This document shows positions 48,685 to 55,558 of a DNA stretch of 64,000 nucleotides, piece after piece. The stretch lies in assembly GCA_001664505.1 (NCBI GenBank), contig CP011806.1, forward strand, positions 1,030,400-1,094,399, written 5' to 3'. A model generated the notes under the pieces. It saw only the letters and a program-made list of their open reading frames with translations, made no database searches and had not been told where the DNA came from. The DNA comes from Acidobacteria bacterium Mor1 (GTDB lineage: Bacteria > Acidobacteriota > Polarisedimenticolia > Polarisedimenticolales > Polarisedimenticolaceae). Each line of letters begins with the position of its first letter. Within the stretch, counting starts at the first letter, position 1. The position numbers and the translations under genes are program-made.

Positions 48685-48855
48685 GCTCCTTACCTCCCCC
48701 GGCGATGATCCGCCCCGGCCCCAGCTTATCTCCTGCGCCGATTCCCTGCCGAGCCGCCGCGCCCCGAGGCCGCCGGCTTCCCCCCGAGGGCGCTGCTGGC
48801 CCCGCCGCGAAGGCCCGGATATATTGGTTCGGTCTCAGAAAACGGGGTGTTCGCC

Positions 48856-49428
48856 ATGGTTCGCAAGATTCTCCTGACCTTGGTCCTGATCGGCCTGCTG
48901 CCCAGCGCCGGAATCGCTCAGAGCGAGGTGATCCGCCGCGGGGGCAACGCCATCGCCTTTCCCGCCCGCACCACCGACGGGAACTTCGACGGAACCTGGT
49001 ACTACGCCAGCCGGGATCACCGCATGGGCCTCTTCATCCGGACCGTCGACGGCGAAGCCCAGCTCCAGATGATCTACCGCAGCAACCGCTTCCCCGAGTC
49101 TTTCGACACCGACTGGAACGGCCGCGCCGAGTACCTGGTCGCCGGCCGGCCCTGCGGCTTCGAGTTCAAGATGGTCAAGTCCGACGAGAACGCCATCCAC
49201 GGAGAGTGGCGTTGGATCACGACCTGGAGCGGCCGGGAGCGGGAGATCTTCGCCAACGCCGAGATCCACCGGACCGGCGACGGGCGCCAGTTGGTCATCC
49301 GCTTCCCCGACAAGACCCGCACCCTGCGGGAGGAATCGGGGGACGAGCGGGTCATCGACAGCCCCGAATCCTGGAGCTTCCGCAAGATTTCCCGCCGCAT
49401 CGTCCGGGTGGAAGAGCTCCCGTTCTGA
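48856..49428 (+). CDS. Exported hypothetical protein (190 aa)
   Basis: The ATG at 48856 follows GGGGTG by seven bases and gives a signal peptide ending SAGIAQS; an upstream GTG at 48847 would add three residues. The mature protein is beta-rich (DGNFDGTWYYASRDHRMGLF; GEWRWITTWSGREREIFANA; WSFRKISRRIVRVEELPF), with repeated Trp and Arg residues suggestive of a small lipocalin-like fold. I do not recognise a family. It is flanked by divergent plsC and the transporter gene. Confidence 0.72.
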   Translation: MVRKILLTLVLIGLLPSAGIAQSEVIRRGGNAIAFPARTTDGNFDGTWYYASRDHRMGLFIRTVDGEAQLQMIYRSNRFPESFDTDWNGRAEYLVAGRPCGFEFKMVKSDENAIHGEWRWITTWSGREREIFANAEIHRTGDGRQLVIRFPDKTRTLREESGDERVIDSPESWSFRKISRRIVRVEELPF

Positions 49429-49546: not shown

Positions 49547-50947
49547 GTGGAGTCTCGCGGTCATTGGAGTTCACGGGTCGGGTTCGTCCTGGCCGCCGCC
49601 GGAAGCGCCATCGGCCTCGGCAACCTCTGGAAGTTCCCCTACATCACCTGGGACAACTCGGGCGGCGCGTTCGTCCTGATCTACCTGGCCTGCATCGCCG
49701 TCGTCGGTCTGCCGATCATGGTCTGCGAGCTGATGATCGGGCGCATGACCCAGAAGAGCCCCGTCGAAGCGTTGCGCGAGGCCGCCGGCCCCGCCTGGTC
49801 CTGGATCGGCGGCGCGGGGGTGCTGACCGGGTTCATCATCCTCGGCTACTACATCGTGATCGCCGGATGGACCCTGCGCTACGTCTGGCAGTGTCTGGTC
49901 TGGACCATCAACGGCTTCGATCCCGTGCAGGCCGGCGGTGACAAGTTCGCCGGCGAATTCCTGACCAACGGTCCCCTGCAGGTCTTGCTGACCGTCTCGT
50001 TCATGGCGCTGACCATGGCGGTGGTCTCCCGGGGCATCGGCGGCGGCATCGAAAAGGCCGCACGCATCCTGATGCCGATCCTGCTGGCGATCCTGGCGCT
50101 GCTCGTGGTGAGCGCCCTGACGATGGACGGCGCCGGCGAGGCGCTGGGCTTCCTGTTCACCCCCAACTTCGCCGAGGTCGAATCGATCGCGGTACTCGAA
50201 GCACTGGGGCATTCGTTCTTTACACTGTCCCTGGGCATGGGCGCGATGATCACCTACGGGTCGTACCTCAGCCGCAAAGACTCGGTGGTGCGCTCGGCCT
50301 CGACGGTGGCGATTCTCGACACCGTGATCGCCCTGGTCGCCTGCGTGATCATGTTCTCGGTCATCTTCTCGGTGCCGGAGATCAAGGAAGGGCTCTCGGG
50401 TTCGAAGTCGCCGGTCGGCATGCTGTTCGTGACCCTGCCGACGCTCTTCTACCAGCAGGTGCCCTTCGGCAACGTGCTGGCTCCCCTGTTCTACCTACTG
50501 GTCGCCTTCGCGGCACTGACCTCGACGATCTCGATGCTCGAGGTGGTGGTCGCCTACTTCATCGACAACAAGGGCATGGACCGGGTCAAGGCGACCCTGG
50601 TCGGCGGTGCGGGTGCGCTTGTGATCTCCCTGGCCTGCGCCGTCTCCCTGGGCGCGATGAACCTGCCGAGCCAGGTGACGCTGCCGCTGCTGGCACCGGG
50701 CAAGTCCGGCGTGTTGGGGGTCCTCGATCACGTCGCATCCAACTGGCTGCTTCCCGTGGGTGGTTTCTTCATCACCCTGGCAGCCGGCTGGGCCATCAGC
50801 CGCAAGGTCAGCGAGGCGGAGCTGGTCGACGAGAACACGCCGGGTTGGTTCAAGTACGGCGTGTGGAGCTTCTTCGTCCGCTTCATCTGCCCCATCGCCG
50901 TGGGCGCGATCATCGTCGCGGTCATCGTGGGCAAGGACTTCAGCTAG
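49547..50947 (+). CDS. Sodium-dependent transporter, neurotransmitter:sodium symporter family
   Basis: A 466-residue membrane protein with about 12 segments. The family start GFVLAAAGSAIGLGNLWKFPYITWDNSGGAF is clear (given here in two parts: GFVLAAAGSAIGLGNLWKFP and YITWDNSGGAF). LeuT-like TM1 and TM6 break regions (FFTLSLGMGAMITYGSYL) are present. Such carriers couple Na+ to uptake of amino acids or related amines. The GTG start follows a G6 tract by four bases. The next gene on the strand is 18 bases away. Confidence 0.95.
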   Translation: MESRGHWSSRVGFVLAAAGSAIGLGNLWKFPYITWDNSGGAFVLIYLACIAVVGLPIMVCELMIGRMTQKSPVEALREAAGPAWSWIGGAGVLTGFIILGYYIVIAGWTLRYVWQCLVWTINGFDPVQAGGDKFAGEFLTNGPLQVLLTVSFMALTMAVVSRGIGGGIEKAARILMPILLAILALLVVSALTMDGAGEALGFLFTPNFAEVESIAVLEALGHSFFTLSLGMGAMITYGSYLSRKDSVVRSASTVAILDTVIALVACVIMFSVIFSVPEIKEGLSGSKSPVGMLFVTLPTLFYQQVPFGNVLAPLFYLLVAFAALTSTISMLEVVVAYFIDNKGMDRVKATLVGGAGALVISLACAVSLGAMNLPSQVTLPLLAPGKSGVLGVLDHVASNWLLPVGGFFITLAAGWAISRKVSEAELVDENTPGWFKYGVWSFFVRFICPIAVGAIIVAVIVGKDFS

Positions 50948-50965
50948 GGTTATGCTGCTCGGGTG

Positions 50966-52339
50966 ATGCGCCGCGCACTCATCCTTCTGATCACGCTGCT
51001 TCTGGTCGCCGCGACCAACGCGGCAGCAAAAGAGCCGCTTTGGGGGCCGCTCAGCATCGTCGATGCAGGAGGGCCCCTGGACGATCCTGAGGTCGAGAAA
51101 CATCTGGCCTTCTCCGCGTCGATTTTCGATGCGGTTCGGATCCCCGCAGTGGAGGCCGGCGACTGGAGAACCGGCGAAATCCACAAGGGGCTGCGCTCCT
51201 TCATCAAGCGTCGTCGCCGCGAGGGCATGGAGGTCATCGTCGCGATCTCGCCCTGGTCCGAGCAGGTCGCCTACTCCGACAAAAGCACCGCCGAGCAACT
51301 AGCCCGATTCCTGCGCAAGCTCCGCAAGCGAGGCGTGAAGCGCGCGATCCTCGACTTTTCTCGTGCTCCCGACCGCCTGGTCGACCTCGAGGACGCTCTA
51401 CGATTCGGCACGCGATCTGAGCTGGCGCAGATCGCGCTGGCCAACGAAGTGGCGAGTGCGCGAACCGGGATTCAGCTGTGGCTTCACCCCTCGGCCTCCA
51501 CCGTCGAGGTCCTCGCCGCTCAGCCCGCCTACATCCCTCCCATCGACAAGACCCGCGACTCCGAGAGGAGCCTGGCTCCAGGCATCGGCGTGGTGACCGT
51601 CGGAATGGATCTCACGGGGCGCACTATCCCCTCGGCTCCCCTAACAGAACTCCGCAATCACTGGGACGGACGGCCGCTGATGCTCCGTGACGGTTTCCCG
51701 CGCTCGGACAACAGCCGCGAGGAGGGTCTCGCCTTGCTCCTCGGCCCCCTGAAGGGCCGTGAACCGCTTGGCGCCACCCTGAGCGCATACTCGTGCCCCG
51801 TGCAGTCGGAACTGGCGGCTAACCGCCTCACCCTCGAGACCATCGGCAACTACCTGGATCGCGACACTGCCTACGATGCGGAGGCAAGCCGCAAGAGAGC
51901 CGTTCACCGGCTCGCCGGGGAAGACCGGGCCGTGCGGGCGGCGCTGGACGCCCAGTCCCTCGAGTGGGGCGGGTTCATCGGCGAGCTGAACTACCGCCCG
52001 GCGGAGGCCGACAACGTCGACGCTGCGGTGCGGCTGCTTCGCTCCCCGGCGGAGCGCATCGGCTGGGACTACGTGCGGAGGCGTTACCCCGAGCGCATCG
52101 AGGCGCTGCGGCGAGCCGAGGATCAGGAGTTTGCGGCGGTGGTGATTCGGCGGATGCAGAGCCGGCTGGCGATCGCCCGGGCCTTGCCTCTGGTGGACAC
52201 CCTGCGATCTGCCGGGAACGAGCAGGAACGTTCGGCGGCGCTTCAGGCGATCGACGCCCTCCGGCGCAAGACCGGCGCCGAGGAGGCCCGACGCCTGCTG
52301 GATCTGTTTCTCGAACGAGCCGGGGTGCCGGCGAAGTGA
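50966..52339 (+). CDS. Exported GH84-like (beta-N-acetylglucosaminidase-related) protein, probably catalytically degenerate
   Basis: A 457-residue protein with a signal peptide ending ATNAAAK. The second half resembles the GH84/NAGidase TIM barrel and its following helical region: RPLMLRDGFPRSDNSREEG, ALLLGPLKGREPLGATL, then ANRLTLETIGNYLDRDTAYD, which parallel the NPMxQxxxSKIAL/AxYLxxPxxYxP region of that family. The catalytic Asp-Asp pair expected after a beta strand reads LDFS (Asp130, Phe131), so the second acid is missing. This suggests a binding rather than hydrolytic protein. A GTG at 50963 would add one codon. It may be cotranscribed with the transporter. The family assignment is by eye and should be tested. 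Confidence 0.5.
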   Translation: MRRALILLITLLLVAATNAAAKEPLWGPLSIVDAGGPLDDPEVEKHLAFSASIFDAVRIPAVEAGDWRTGEIHKGLRSFIKRRRREGMEVIVAISPWSEQVAYSDKSTAEQLARFLRKLRKRGVKRAILDFSRAPDRLVDLEDALRFGTRSELAQIALANEVASARTGIQLWLHPSASTVEVLAAQPAYIPPIDKTRDSERSLAPGIGVVTVGMDLTGRTIPSAPLTELRNHWDGRPLMLRDGFPRSDNSREEGLALLLGPLKGREPLGATLSAYSCPVQSELAANRLTLETIGNYLDRDTAYDAEASRKRAVHRLAGEDRAVRAALDAQSLEWGGFIGELNYRPAEADNVDAAVRLLRSPAERIGWDYVRRRYPERIEALRRAEDQEFAAVVIRRMQSRLAIARALPLVDTLRSAGNEQERSAALQAIDALRRKTGAEEARRLLDLFLERAGVPAK

Positions 52340-52349
52340 GCGTCCGGCG

Positions 52350-53519
52350 CTAGCGTGCGGCCTCGGCACTCTCGGCGGCCTCTACCGCCTCGGACGCCGG
52401 CAGCAACGCCCGGAACATCGCGCCTCCGCTGGGTGCCGTCTCGACCCAGATGACTCCGCCGTGGGCCTCGACCGCCAGGCGGCAGAAGGTCAAACCCAGC
52501 CCGCGGTTGGCCGAGACGCCGGACTCCCGCAGGTTGAGACGGGCGAACTTCTCGAAGACCTGCTCCCGGTGCTCCTCGGGGATCCCCGGGCCCTCGTCGG
52601 CTACCGAGACCTCGATCCCCTCCTCACGCATACCGAGAGAGACGGTCACGACCCCTTCAGACGGCGAGTGTTCGACGGCGTTGGTCAGCAGGTTGTCCAT
52701 CACCCGGCGCAACACGGAGCTGTCCCCCTCGAGGCTGCAGTCATCCTCGGGAGGAGTGATCTCGACCTGCACCTTACGGGACTGGGCGGCGTACTCGACA
52801 TCGTCGATGGCCTTCTGCAGGAGCTCCAGGGCGTCGACGTTTTCCCGGTGCAGGGTCAGGCGGCCGTGCTCCAGGCCGGCAATGTCCAGCAGATCCATGA
52901 TCATGTGCTGAATGCGTGACGCCGACGTACGACAGCGGGAGACCAGCGGCTGGTTGACCTCGTCGACCCGGCGCTCCAGCAGGTCGAGGCTGCCCACCAC
53001 GGCGGTCAGCGGGTTTTTCAGGTCGTGGACCAGGGTCTGGGACAGGGTCTCCTTGAGGGCCTGAAGCTCCTCGAGCTCCCCGTTGCGTTCGGCGAGCTGG
53101 CTGCGAGCATCTTCGAGCTCCAGCAGCAGGCCGCGCACGCGGAGCAGCGAGCGCACCTTGGCCAGGAACGAGTTGCGGCGCACCGGCTTGGCCACGTAGT
53201 CGTCGGCCCCGTGGTCGAGGCCGAGGATGTGGTGCGGCTCGTCGCCGAGCGCGGTGACCAACATGACCTGGCTCAGACGGGTTCGCGGGTTGGCCTTGAG
53301 CTCCCGGCAGACCTCGAGCCCGTTCATCCCGGACATCATCACGTCCAGCAGCACCAGATCCGGGACCAACTCCTGGGCCAGGGCCAGGGCGGTCGGGCCG
53401 TCGTTGGCGCAGCGGACCCGGTACCCGGCGTTCTGCAGGTAGCCTTCCAGCAGCTTGACGTTGCGCGGATCGTCGTCGACGACCAGCAGATCGAACTGTC
53501 TCGTATTCTCGGCGCTCAT
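52350..53519 (-). CDS. Receiver-histidine kinase hybrid (REC-HisKA-HATPase)
   Basis: A 389-residue cytoplasmic protein. The receiver at the N-terminus is intact: LLVVDDDPRNVKLL, LVLLDVMMSGMNGLEV (phospho-Asp), LVTALGDE and DDYVAKPVRR. A coiled linker leads to HisKA (LVHDLKNPLTAVVGSLDLL, with the phospho-His) and HATPase (N-box VMDNLLTNAVEHS, G1 VADEGPGIP, G2 NRGLGLTFCR). Such REC-kinase fusions often serve as intermediates in phosphorelays. The ATG overlaps the upstream kinase stop (ATGA). It is the last gene of the module starting at 57173. Confidence 0.93.
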   Translation of the reverse strand: MSAENTRQFDLLVVDDDPRNVKLLEGYLQNAGYRVRCANDGPTALALAQELVPDLVLLDVMMSGMNGLEVCRELKANPRTRLSQVMLVTALGDEPHHILGLDHGADDYVAKPVRRNSFLAKVRSLLRVRGLLLELEDARSQLAERNGELEELQALKETLSQTLVHDLKNPLTAVVGSLDLLERRVDEVNQPLVSRCRTSASRIQHMIMDLLDIAGLEHGRLTLHRENVDALELLQKAIDDVEYAAQSRKVQVEITPPEDDCSLEGDSSVLRRVMDNLLTNAVEHSPSEGVVTVSLGMREEGIEVSVADEGPGIPEEHREQVFEKFARLNLRESGVSANRGLGLTFCRLAVEAHGGVIWVETAPSGGAMFRALLPASEAVEAAESAEAAR

Positions 53520-55558
53520 GAGACCTTCTCCTCCGCCATAAGCAGGGATTCCACTTGCTGGGGGAACTTCGAAAGGCTGACCGGCTTGGGAGCCACGGCG
53601 TGGATGCCGACCTCCCGCAACACGTTCTCAGGGGGTTGCCGCGCGCTCTTGGCGAGGAGGATCAGGGTCGTCCCCACCGAGGCGGTTCGCTCGGACAGGG
53701 TCTTCGCCAGACGCAGCACGTCGCAATCGGGTAGATCCTGATCGAGCACGATCAAGTCGGGGCGATGGAGTTCCACCGCCTGCAGGGTTTCTTCTTCGGA
53801 CCCGGTTTCCCGGGTGTCGAAGTTTCGCGAGCGCAGGGCGCTCCCGGCCAGGCGGCGATCCAGGGAGCCGGCGGCCACCGCCAGCAACACCACGGGACCC
53901 GACTCCGGATCTCTCGGAGCAGGTGCCGGAGCGGCTGCGGGGGGCTCTTCCTGGGGCGCCGGCTCGTCGACGGGGGCCTCGGAGACGATCCCGGAGCCGA
54001 TCAGTGAGGGCACCTCGAGGGGGCCCTCGATCAGGCAGTCGGGGTAGACACAGGTGAAGGTGGCGCCCTTCCCCTGTTCCGATACCACCGAGACCCGACC
54101 GTCGTGGAGCGACACCATCTTCTTGACCAGGGCCAGGCCGAGGCCAGTGCCTTCGTACTCCCGCGAATAGGAACCGTCGACCTGATAGAACTCCTGGAAC
54201 ACCCGGGCCGCATCTTCCTCGGAGATCCCGATCCCGGTGTCCTCGACGTCGACGACGAGATCGTTGCCCACGGTGCGAACCCGGGCGGTGATCCGGCCGC
54301 CGTCGGGAGTGAACTTCACGCCGTTGCTCAGCAGGTTGACCAGGACCGCCCGGAACATGCCCGGGTCGATATCCGCCACCACCCCCTCGGGATCGACGTC
54401 CAGCTCGACGGTCAGGGACTTCTTGTCCGCCTGGGGCCGGATCATGGTGGTCGACCGTTCGATCATGTCTTTGATCGGCGTGGGGCTGCGGCGGATCTCG
54501 AGTTTGCCCGCCTCGATCTTGGACAGGTCGAGGATGTCATTGATCAGGCTCAACAGGTGCTCGCCGCTGGAATGGATATCGCCGAGCAGTTCGCGCTGCC
54601 GCGGCAGCAGGTCGCCGACGCTGGGCTCGGCCAGTAGCTCGGAGAAGCCGATGATCGAGTTGAGCGGGGTGCGCAGCTCATGGGAGACGTTGGCCAGGAA
54701 CGCGCTCTTGGCCCGGCTGGCCTCGGTCAGGCGGGTGTTGGCCTCGCGAAGCTGACGGTTGGTCTGGGCCACCCGTCCCAGGGCGTCCTGCAACTCCCGG
54801 GTACGCTCGGCGACCTTCAGCTCCAGCTCCGCGTTGAGCGCCTCGATTTCCTCGATCCGTCGCTGGTGCTCTTCCAGACGCTCCTTGTGGCTTCGATAGA
54901 ACTCGACCAGCAGCCAGCAGGGCGGGATCGCCAGCAGCAGGCCCCAGGGGCCCATGCCGACGTAGATCACCATCATGACCGCGGCGACGGTCAGCCCCAT
55001 CAGGTACGAGACGCCGGTCCAGAGGAAGGACTCCTTCCAGACGTCGGTCAGCTTGAGGTTCCGCTCGAGGGCGATCGCCACGCTGACCAGGCCGGTGTTG
55101 GACAGGAAGAACACCGCGGTCGCCAGGGCCAGCGGCCCGAGGATCGCGGTCACCGCCTGGCCGTCCCCGCCCCCTGCCCAGAAGAAGACCCAACCGGCGA
55201 GACCCGCCGCCAGCGGCTGCACACCCAAGTTGAACAACGCACGAATCGGGCGCTGCCGATTCGACCTCTCGGTGAATGCGCCGAACACCGTGGCGATGGA
55301 GGTGATCATCGCCGGAATCGTGCCCAGGGCACCCAGGGCGAAGATGACGAAGGGGTGACTGGCGGTCAGCTGAACCCGCAGGGCCGAGATGCGCACCGGC
55401 TTCGAGCCGGTCAACGCAGCGAGCACCACCAACAAAGCGAGCATCAACCAGTTGCGTTCGTAGACCTCCGGCGGCGGGAAGACACAGCACGCCACCGCCA
55501 TCGCATCGACAGCGAGGACGTACAGCCAAAGCGCCGTGGATCTACGGGTCGAACTCAA
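53516..55558 (-). CDS. Membrane sensor histidine kinase with degenerate C-terminal receiver
   Basis: A 680-residue protein that starts with TTG 55558, nine bases after GGGAGG. About seven membrane segments occupy residues 1-220 (LWLYVLAVDAMAVACCVF onward), followed by a coiled coil (EALNAELELKVAERTRELQ), HisKA (FLANVSHELRTPLNSIIGF), and HATPase (N-box NLLSNGVKFTPDGG, G1 VEDTGIGISEEDA, G2 EGTGLGLALVKKM). A Pro/Ala/Glu-rich linker leads to a receiver-like domain (PDLIVLDQDLPDCD, VAPKPVS) that lacks the N-terminal acidic pair (VLLAVAAGSLD). The kinase is likely active, the receiver doubtful. The stop overlaps the following kinase gene. Confidence 0.92.
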   Translation of the reverse strand: MSSTRRSTALWLYVLAVDAMAVACCVFPPPEVYERNWLMLALLVVLAALTGSKPVRISALRVQLTASHPFVIFALGALGTIPAMITSIATVFGAFTERSNRQRPIRALFNLGVQPLAAGLAGWVFFWAGGGDGQAVTAILGPLALATAVFFLSNTGLVSVAIALERNLKLTDVWKESFLWTGVSYLMGLTVAAVMMVIYVGMGPWGLLLAIPPCWLLVEFYRSHKERLEEHQRRIEEIEALNAELELKVAERTRELQDALGRVAQTNRQLREANTRLTEASRAKSAFLANVSHELRTPLNSIIGFSELLAEPSVGDLLPRQRELLGDIHSSGEHLLSLINDILDLSKIEAGKLEIRRSPTPIKDMIERSTTMIRPQADKKSLTVELDVDPEGVVADIDPGMFRAVLVNLLSNGVKFTPDGGRITARVRTVGNDLVVDVEDTGIGISEEDAARVFQEFYQVDGSYSREYEGTGLGLALVKKMVSLHDGRVSVVSEQGKGATFTCVYPDCLIEGPLEVPSLIGSGIVSEAPVDEPAPQEEPPAAAPAPAPRDPESGPVVLLAVAAGSLDRRLAGSALRSRNFDTRETGSEEETLQAVELHRPDLIVLDQDLPDCDVLRLAKTLSERTASVGTTLILLAKSARQPPENVLREVGIHAVAPKPVSLSKFPQQVESLLMAEEKVS

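Follow-up and report, generated by a model that had tools for sequence, protein, structure and literature searches.

Is the GH84-like protein encoded here still a glycosidase and, if it is not, why would its gene persist? The stretch of DNA that we analysed, referred to as the window, comprises 64,000 nucleotides of Acidobacteria bacterium Mor1 (genome G000 below), and a Pfam-based annotation would name the protein in question (the window protein) a beta-N-acetylglucosaminidase, although cutting by that mechanism is very improbable. The reading that we prefer, and hold to be rather probable, is that it is a probably secreted pseudoenzyme, derived from a GH84-type beta-N-acetylglucosaminidase and still maintained in a non-catalytic role.

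Results

A GH84 fold followed by a helical domain

The coding region and its landmarks are given in Table 1. The GC content of the gene by codon position is 0.72/0.50/0.81. Residues are counted from the GTG codon; the original prediction counted from the ATG, so that its numbers are one lower. The two segments on which it drew, LLLGPLKGREP and NRLTLETIGNYL, are both present in the reading frame. Judging by its N-terminus, the window protein is probably exported, and the N-termini of its orthologues are hydrophobic as well.

Table 1. Features in and around the GH84-like gene (positions in the window)
Feature	Position	Strand	Basis or remark
Small, probably exported protein, no Pfam match	48847..49428	+	Orthologue adjoins the GH84-like gene in G003 and G008
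Sodium:neurotransmitter symporter family (SNF) transporter	49547..50947	+	15 bp upstream of the GH84-like gene
GH84-like gene, 458 aa	50963..52339	+	Open reading frame, PF07555 E 2.1e-14; GTG start, ATG at 50966 possible too
Likely Sec signal peptide, about residues 1-23	50963..51031	+	Charged start, hydrophobic run and Ala-X-Ala, read by eye
TIM-barrel domain, residues 28-300	51044..51862	+	AF2 model, Foldseek, VIA-align
D131-F132, immediately preceding the catalytic pair	51353..51358	+	Alignments
S133 (tct) and R134 (cgt), in the columns of the TtOGA catalytic pair Asp119-Asp120	51359..51364	+	Pairwise and orthologue alignments
D249, kept, aligned with TtOGA Asp228 (O4/O6 contact)	51707..51709	+	Pairwise alignment with 5diy
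LLLGPLKGREP segment, residues 258-268	51734..51766	+	
NRLTLETIGNYL segment, residues 287-298	51821..51856	+	
C-terminal helical domain, residues 301-458	51863..52336	+	Best-kept part in the window protein and G003
Two sensor-kinase/receiver genes (52350-53519 and 53516-55558)	52350..55558	-	Found at the locus in relatives too

The GH84-like fold proposed at the outset was borne out by sequence and structure searches alike. The Pfam family NAGidase (PF07555) matched residues 75-322 over profile positions 56-284 of 295, with 54 bits against a cut-off of 25 (E 2.1e-14). This was the one PF07555 match in the genome, on which ground a compensating paralogue was rejected, and no further Pfam family scored better than E 0.078 in any of the eight orthologues described below. 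Among the five PDB sequences returned by phmmer at a threshold of E up to 10, 5diy (TtOGA, from Thermobaculum terrenum) was the sole significant match (E 4.6e-7), the remaining four being at chance level (E 0.78-0.88). A profile of the eight orthologues (A1), run against the PDB at E up to 0.001, retrieved 37 distinct sequences, with 5diy as the best (5.7e-30); all 37 are named as O-GlcNAcase, hyaluronidase/hyaluronoglucosaminidase or glucosaminidase.

An AF2 model of the window protein, built from four sequences, was of middling quality (pLDDT 70, pTM 0.50; for the G001 orthologue, pLDDT 73 and pTM 0.57). When it was submitted to Foldseek, 43 of the 50 matches listed, out of 153 at E <= 0.001, were titled GH84, OGA or O-GlcNAc hydrolase and the other seven just 'hydrolase' or 'glycosylhydrolase', with TM-scores of about 0.4. 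VIA-align gave its best Z, 16.2, for human OGA (rmsd 8.8), and for 5diy a Z of 16.0 at an rmsd of 9.1, with 345 aligned residues, model residues 28-457 lying on chain positions 4-452. As the TM-scores are low, the rmsd large and the model middling, the fold assignment rests on the sequence matches and the Foldseek and VIA-align matches jointly. With that model confidence, the predicted architecture is a TIM barrel followed by a helical bundle, closest to O-GlcNAcases; in TtOGA, the best sequence match, the same two parts likewise extend over nearly the whole protein. The reservation that the similarity might be too remote to hold can be dropped in view of the Pfam, phmmer, A1, Foldseek and VIA-align results.

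Both catalytic aspartates are replaced

In the pairwise alignment with 5diy, S133 falls on Asp119 and R134 on position 120, an Asp that is mutated to Asn in this entry. D131-F132 align with Phe117-Phe118 of 5diy and with the Ser-Phe that precedes the pair in intact orthologues, the motif reading LSFDD in six of the eight orthologues, LDFSR in the window protein and LSFRG in G003. Since S133 and R134 occupy the columns of the pair, both catalytic aspartates are missing. The original prediction had set Asp130-Phe131 (D131-F132 here) on the pair and concluded that one catalytic acid was lost; this placement was off by two, the pair columns being 132 and 133 in its numbering, and while the acid is indeed missing, two aspartates are gone rather than one. 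According to the TtOGA study (PMC4683255), D120 is the acid, D119 stabilises the 2-acetamido group and D228 contacts O4/O6. The same study describes TtOGA, with Asp119/Asp120, as cytoplasmic and active on O-GlcNAc proteins, whereas the window protein carries Ser-Arg and is probably exported. On these alignments, GH84-type catalysis by the window protein can very probably be discounted.

A search for an intact Asp pair at another position yielded only D40-D41, the sole other Asp-Asp of the window protein, which lies in an N-terminal loop and is paralleled in none of the seven other orthologues; we therefore rejected it as a relocated pair. The codons tct and cgt differ from the GA(C/T) GA(C/T) of intact orthologues by at least two changes each, in a genome assembled as one contig. 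Several base changes in two adjacent codons, together with a second orthologue in which both residues are lost, rule out a sequencing error.

Intact orthologues at the same locus

Within its order, acidobacterial kin of Candidatus Polarisedimenticola, the gene is present in eight of ten genomes, and the seven other orthologues are 28-35% identical to the window protein. Six of them (G001 and G005-G009) have its length, its domain order and, G005 excepted, its locus, at 31-35% identity; they retain LSFDD, Tyr, Trp-Thr-Gly and Y-D-N, which the window protein does not. The seventh, in G003 of the same family, resembles the window protein in having lost both aspartates, in its fast branch and in its retained helical domain, and differs from it in its replacement residues (LSFRG) and in an identity of just 28%. 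Six of the seven have neighbours in common with the window, in varying subsets of lspA, lgt, rluD, DUF2520, the small gene and the kinases; on the G005 contig, which has just 15,962 bases and extends largely downstream of the gene, no common neighbour was found. Sequence and gene order thus make the window protein a positional orthologue of GH84-like proteins in which the Asp pair is intact. With two acids lost and intact orthologues at the same locus, the case is better founded than the original prediction held.

The genome contigs gave no match when scanned with a single protein; querying them with the six intact orthologues together (A2) returned three named loci (L056-L058). In G004, 7 bases separate the transporter from the kinase gene, and a tblastn search of 15 kb at this locus with all eight orthologues detected no GH84-like gene (lowest E 0.031), from which we conclude that the gene is missing there; its absence from the same locus makes it dispensable. 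The other genome without it, G002, is 81% complete and has no match to lgt or rpoB either, so that its absence is uninformative.

A functional link to the SNF transporter is unsupported. The adjacency is unconserved in the order: the transporter lies about 9 kb from the GH84-like gene in G001, none was found in the 19 kb around the GH84-like gene of G003, and G004 has the transporter at the locus without that gene. The small-protein gene at 48847-49428 is conserved at the locus in G003, G004 and G008, at 29-36% identity. In G007, the GH84-like gene and an LspA-like sequence share one open reading frame of 810 aa (L003:445-2877), either as a fusion or through a start inside a common frame.

Across 396 genomes of the phylum, 23 proteins match PF07555; 20 keep Asp-Asp, three lack both residues and none lacks just one. 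The three are the window protein, the G003 orthologue and a protein of G188, from another acidobacterial family (L035, C127:16434-17330). The latter is an otherwise ordinary GH84 protein with Gly-Lys for Asp-Asp, reading LLFGKAP where its congener G135 reads LLFDDAP, and comes from a fragmented assembly that is 82% complete. G183, with a short-stretch A1 match alone and no PF07555 match, was excluded from the alignment of the 23. A profile of the C-terminal domain (A5), with at most nine candidates scored per genome, matched the eight known orthologues alone in the 396 genomes. The GH84 gene of G207 (L044, C4:85-888) has one in-frame TGA, near the contig end.

Accelerated evolution with a retained helical domain

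A gene that has lost its catalytic function may simply be on its way out, catalysis having gone first and the frame staying open by chance or through weak residual constraint, with G004 as the end point of this process. We regard such a slow decay, the chief alternative to our reading, as unlikely, although several observations agree with it. Both degenerate proteins have accelerated terminal branches in the eight-orthologue tree, at 1.20 for the window protein and 1.62 for G003, against 0.51 for G007 and 0.56 for G009, and 0.11-0.34 in the four intact sequences for which the tree includes a close relative. In a tree with outgroups, the corresponding values are 0.93 and 1.49 against 0.11-0.52. 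The marker tree, made from neighbouring genes and excluding G005, whose contig carries no marker, gives 0.70 for G000 and 0.66 for G003 against 0.46-0.55 in the other six genomes; the marker branches of G007 and G009 (0.55 and 0.54) are thus not much shorter than those of the two genomes with degenerate proteins. The absence of the gene between SNF transporter and kinase gene in G004 points the same way.

The distribution of the retained residues leads away from decay. The six intact orthologues have 125 invariant columns, 68 of which are kept in the window protein and 64 in G003; an intact orthologue left out of the set matches the other five at 84-97% of their invariant columns, with higher values where a close relative is present. 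When the single signal-peptide column is excluded, the window protein keeps 40/85 barrel columns versus 28/39 C-terminal ones (Fisher p 0.012), and G003 keeps 33/85 versus 30/39 (p 9e-5). Each of the six intact orthologues conserves its barrel better than its C-terminal part, by 0.05-0.10, and the bootstrap interval excludes zero in two of them. For the window protein, the difference has the opposite sign, with an interval that touches zero (-0.14 to 0.01); for G003, the interval is -0.25 to -0.10 and excludes zero. These alignment-based comparisons suggest that conservation has shifted away from the barrel and towards the C-terminal helical domain, clearly in G003 and as a borderline effect in the window protein. 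On the active-site face, defined as strand ends plus the eight residues after each, columns were not lost significantly faster than in the rest of the barrel, neither in the window protein (12/30 kept vs 28/55, p 0.37) nor in G003 (9/30 vs 24/55, p 0.25), indicating that the whole barrel is relaxed and not the pocket alone, which decay would also accommodate.

Decay would further have to account for two full-length, stop-free frames at the end of long branches. In a neutral simulation from the window frame (2000 runs per setting, indels left out), the share of stop-free frames was 7.7% at 0.1 substitutions per site and 0.9% at 0.2, so that a neutral frame is expected to gain stops; the window frame has stayed open along a branch measuring 0.93-1.20 changes per site. 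The third-position GC of the gene, 0.81, is slightly under that of the eight nearest genes (0.82-0.92), and this, the modest contrast in the window protein, the relaxation of the whole barrel and the absence from G004 are the points that speak against a maintained pseudoenzyme. On balance, the window protein appears to be maintained rather than decaying, and it is likely to be still under selection and at work.

Little is left of the sugar pocket

Besides the Asp pair, we compared the Tyr, W-T-G, W/Y-D-N and G-F-Y-G motifs, the P-K-D-D lysine and the N-P-M Asn, all of which we take to have roles in the GH84 pocket. The Tyr, Trp-Thr-Gly and Tyr-Asp-Asn positions are kept in all six intact orthologues and read S179, T212-V-G and R242-D-G in the window protein. 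In the alignment, the Asn of N-P-M, the G-F-Y-G loop and the P-K-D-D lysine are absent from all eight orthologues of the order. Among the 15 further GH84 proteins in the phylum, the Tyr occurs in 13, W-T-G in 11, W-D-N in 12 and the N-P-M Asn in 12, against five each for the G-F-Y-G loop and the P-K-D-D Lys; as they occur in just five of 15, loop and Lys discriminate little. Among the pocket residues compared, the window protein retains only D249, the Asp aligned with TtOGA D228, in a column that holds Tyr in G003 and Glu in the intact G006 and G008.

These replacements bear on the idea, put forward in the original prediction, that the protein binds GlcNAc-containing ligands without cutting them. 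It would then be lectin-like, comparable to Asp-to-Asn mutants of GH84 enzymes or to the GH18 chi-lectins. The retained fold and D249 would suit such a protein, and the missing G-F-Y-G loop and P-K-D-D lysine count little against it, as most of the 15 other GH84 proteins lack them too; moreover, PMC4683255 states that the acid mutant of CpOGA, Asp298 to Asn, still binds substrate. However, such Asp-to-Asn mutants of GH84 enzymes keep the remaining pocket, whereas the window protein has also replaced the Tyr, Trp-Thr-Gly and Y-D-N residues and is without the N-P-M Asn, and in G003 even the O4/O6 Asp column is Tyr. With the further pocket residues of the six intact orthologues gone, retained GlcNAc binding is unsupported; judged by the alignment, it is unlikely in the window protein, and we consider a lectin-like role improbable.

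Hardly to be expected is surviving glycosidase activity on another substrate, using an acid at a new position such as D131 or D249. D131, on the same strand as the lost Asp and two residues before it, is indeed new, the six intact orthologues and G003 all having Ser at this point of strand 4, but this leaves G003 (LSFRG) without an acid in the column, and near it there is no new acidic pair common to both degenerate orthologues.

One loss or two

The protein tree groups the window protein with G003 (94/89 and 92/97), both being long branches, and the alternative of G003 with G001 and G005 is not clearly rejected (p-AU 0.059). In the rpoB tree, G000 stands outside (G003,G004)+(G001,G005) with 82/84, and the intact G001 is nearer to G003 than the window's genome is. 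With the markers combined, G000 comes to lie next to the other two families, though at low support (61/50), and a clade of G000, G003 and G004 is disfavoured at p-AU 0.046. The tests are thus borderline in both directions as to whether the pair was lost once or twice.

The window protein and G003 have 25 residues exclusively in common, compared with 3-14 for either of them with an intact orthologue, and 39 invariant columns have changed in both, nine of them to the same new residue. In terms of sequence, these exclusive residues favour either a degenerate ancestor in common or the same new constraint on both. One could speculate, and we would not put it higher than a possibility on the unlikely side, that acidobacterial envelope GH84 enzymes were made non-catalytic more than once, in the lineages of the window protein and G003 and independently in G188 with its Gly-Lys, and that in the former two selection moved away from the barrel to the helical stalk as a scaffold now used in binding or signalling.

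Discussion

According to the maintained-pseudoenzyme reading, a GH84-type enzyme would have lost its Asp pair, replaced by Ser-Arg, along with further pocket residues, while selection would have persisted on the fold and, above all, on the C-terminal helical domain; the protein would now act by binding a partner, a protein or a polymer, in the cell envelope. If fold and helical domain are still selected, action through partner binding is the most likely mode. That the helical domain itself serves in binding or scaffolding is an idea suggested by the conservation pattern, which we advance tentatively.

Chi-lectins of GH18 keep their sugar cleft, whereas the window protein has lost further pocket residues. 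Other families are also reported to contain glycosidase pseudoenzymes, such as heparanase 2 and those among beetle pectinases. Like the chi-lectins, and like the window protein, these retain a glycosidase fold without its catalytic residues, although the families differ. Among the matches listed in a search of the open-access literature, there was no report of a naturally dead GH84 protein. Intact and dead orthologues at one locus in neighbouring genera offer a natural comparison for a non-catalytic role of the O-GlcNAcase helical stalk.

One further difference between the genomes concerns the vicinity of lspA, which in several relatives is adjoined by a type of isoleucyl-tRNA synthetase (named from sequence). 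Seven other genomes have this type at 64-68% identity to the G004 protein, and the incomplete G002 gives weak matches alone. The window's genome is without it; its best match (C1:2833767-2836352; versus L085-L092) shares just 31% identity and is located elsewhere, which would suit a replacement of the enzyme.
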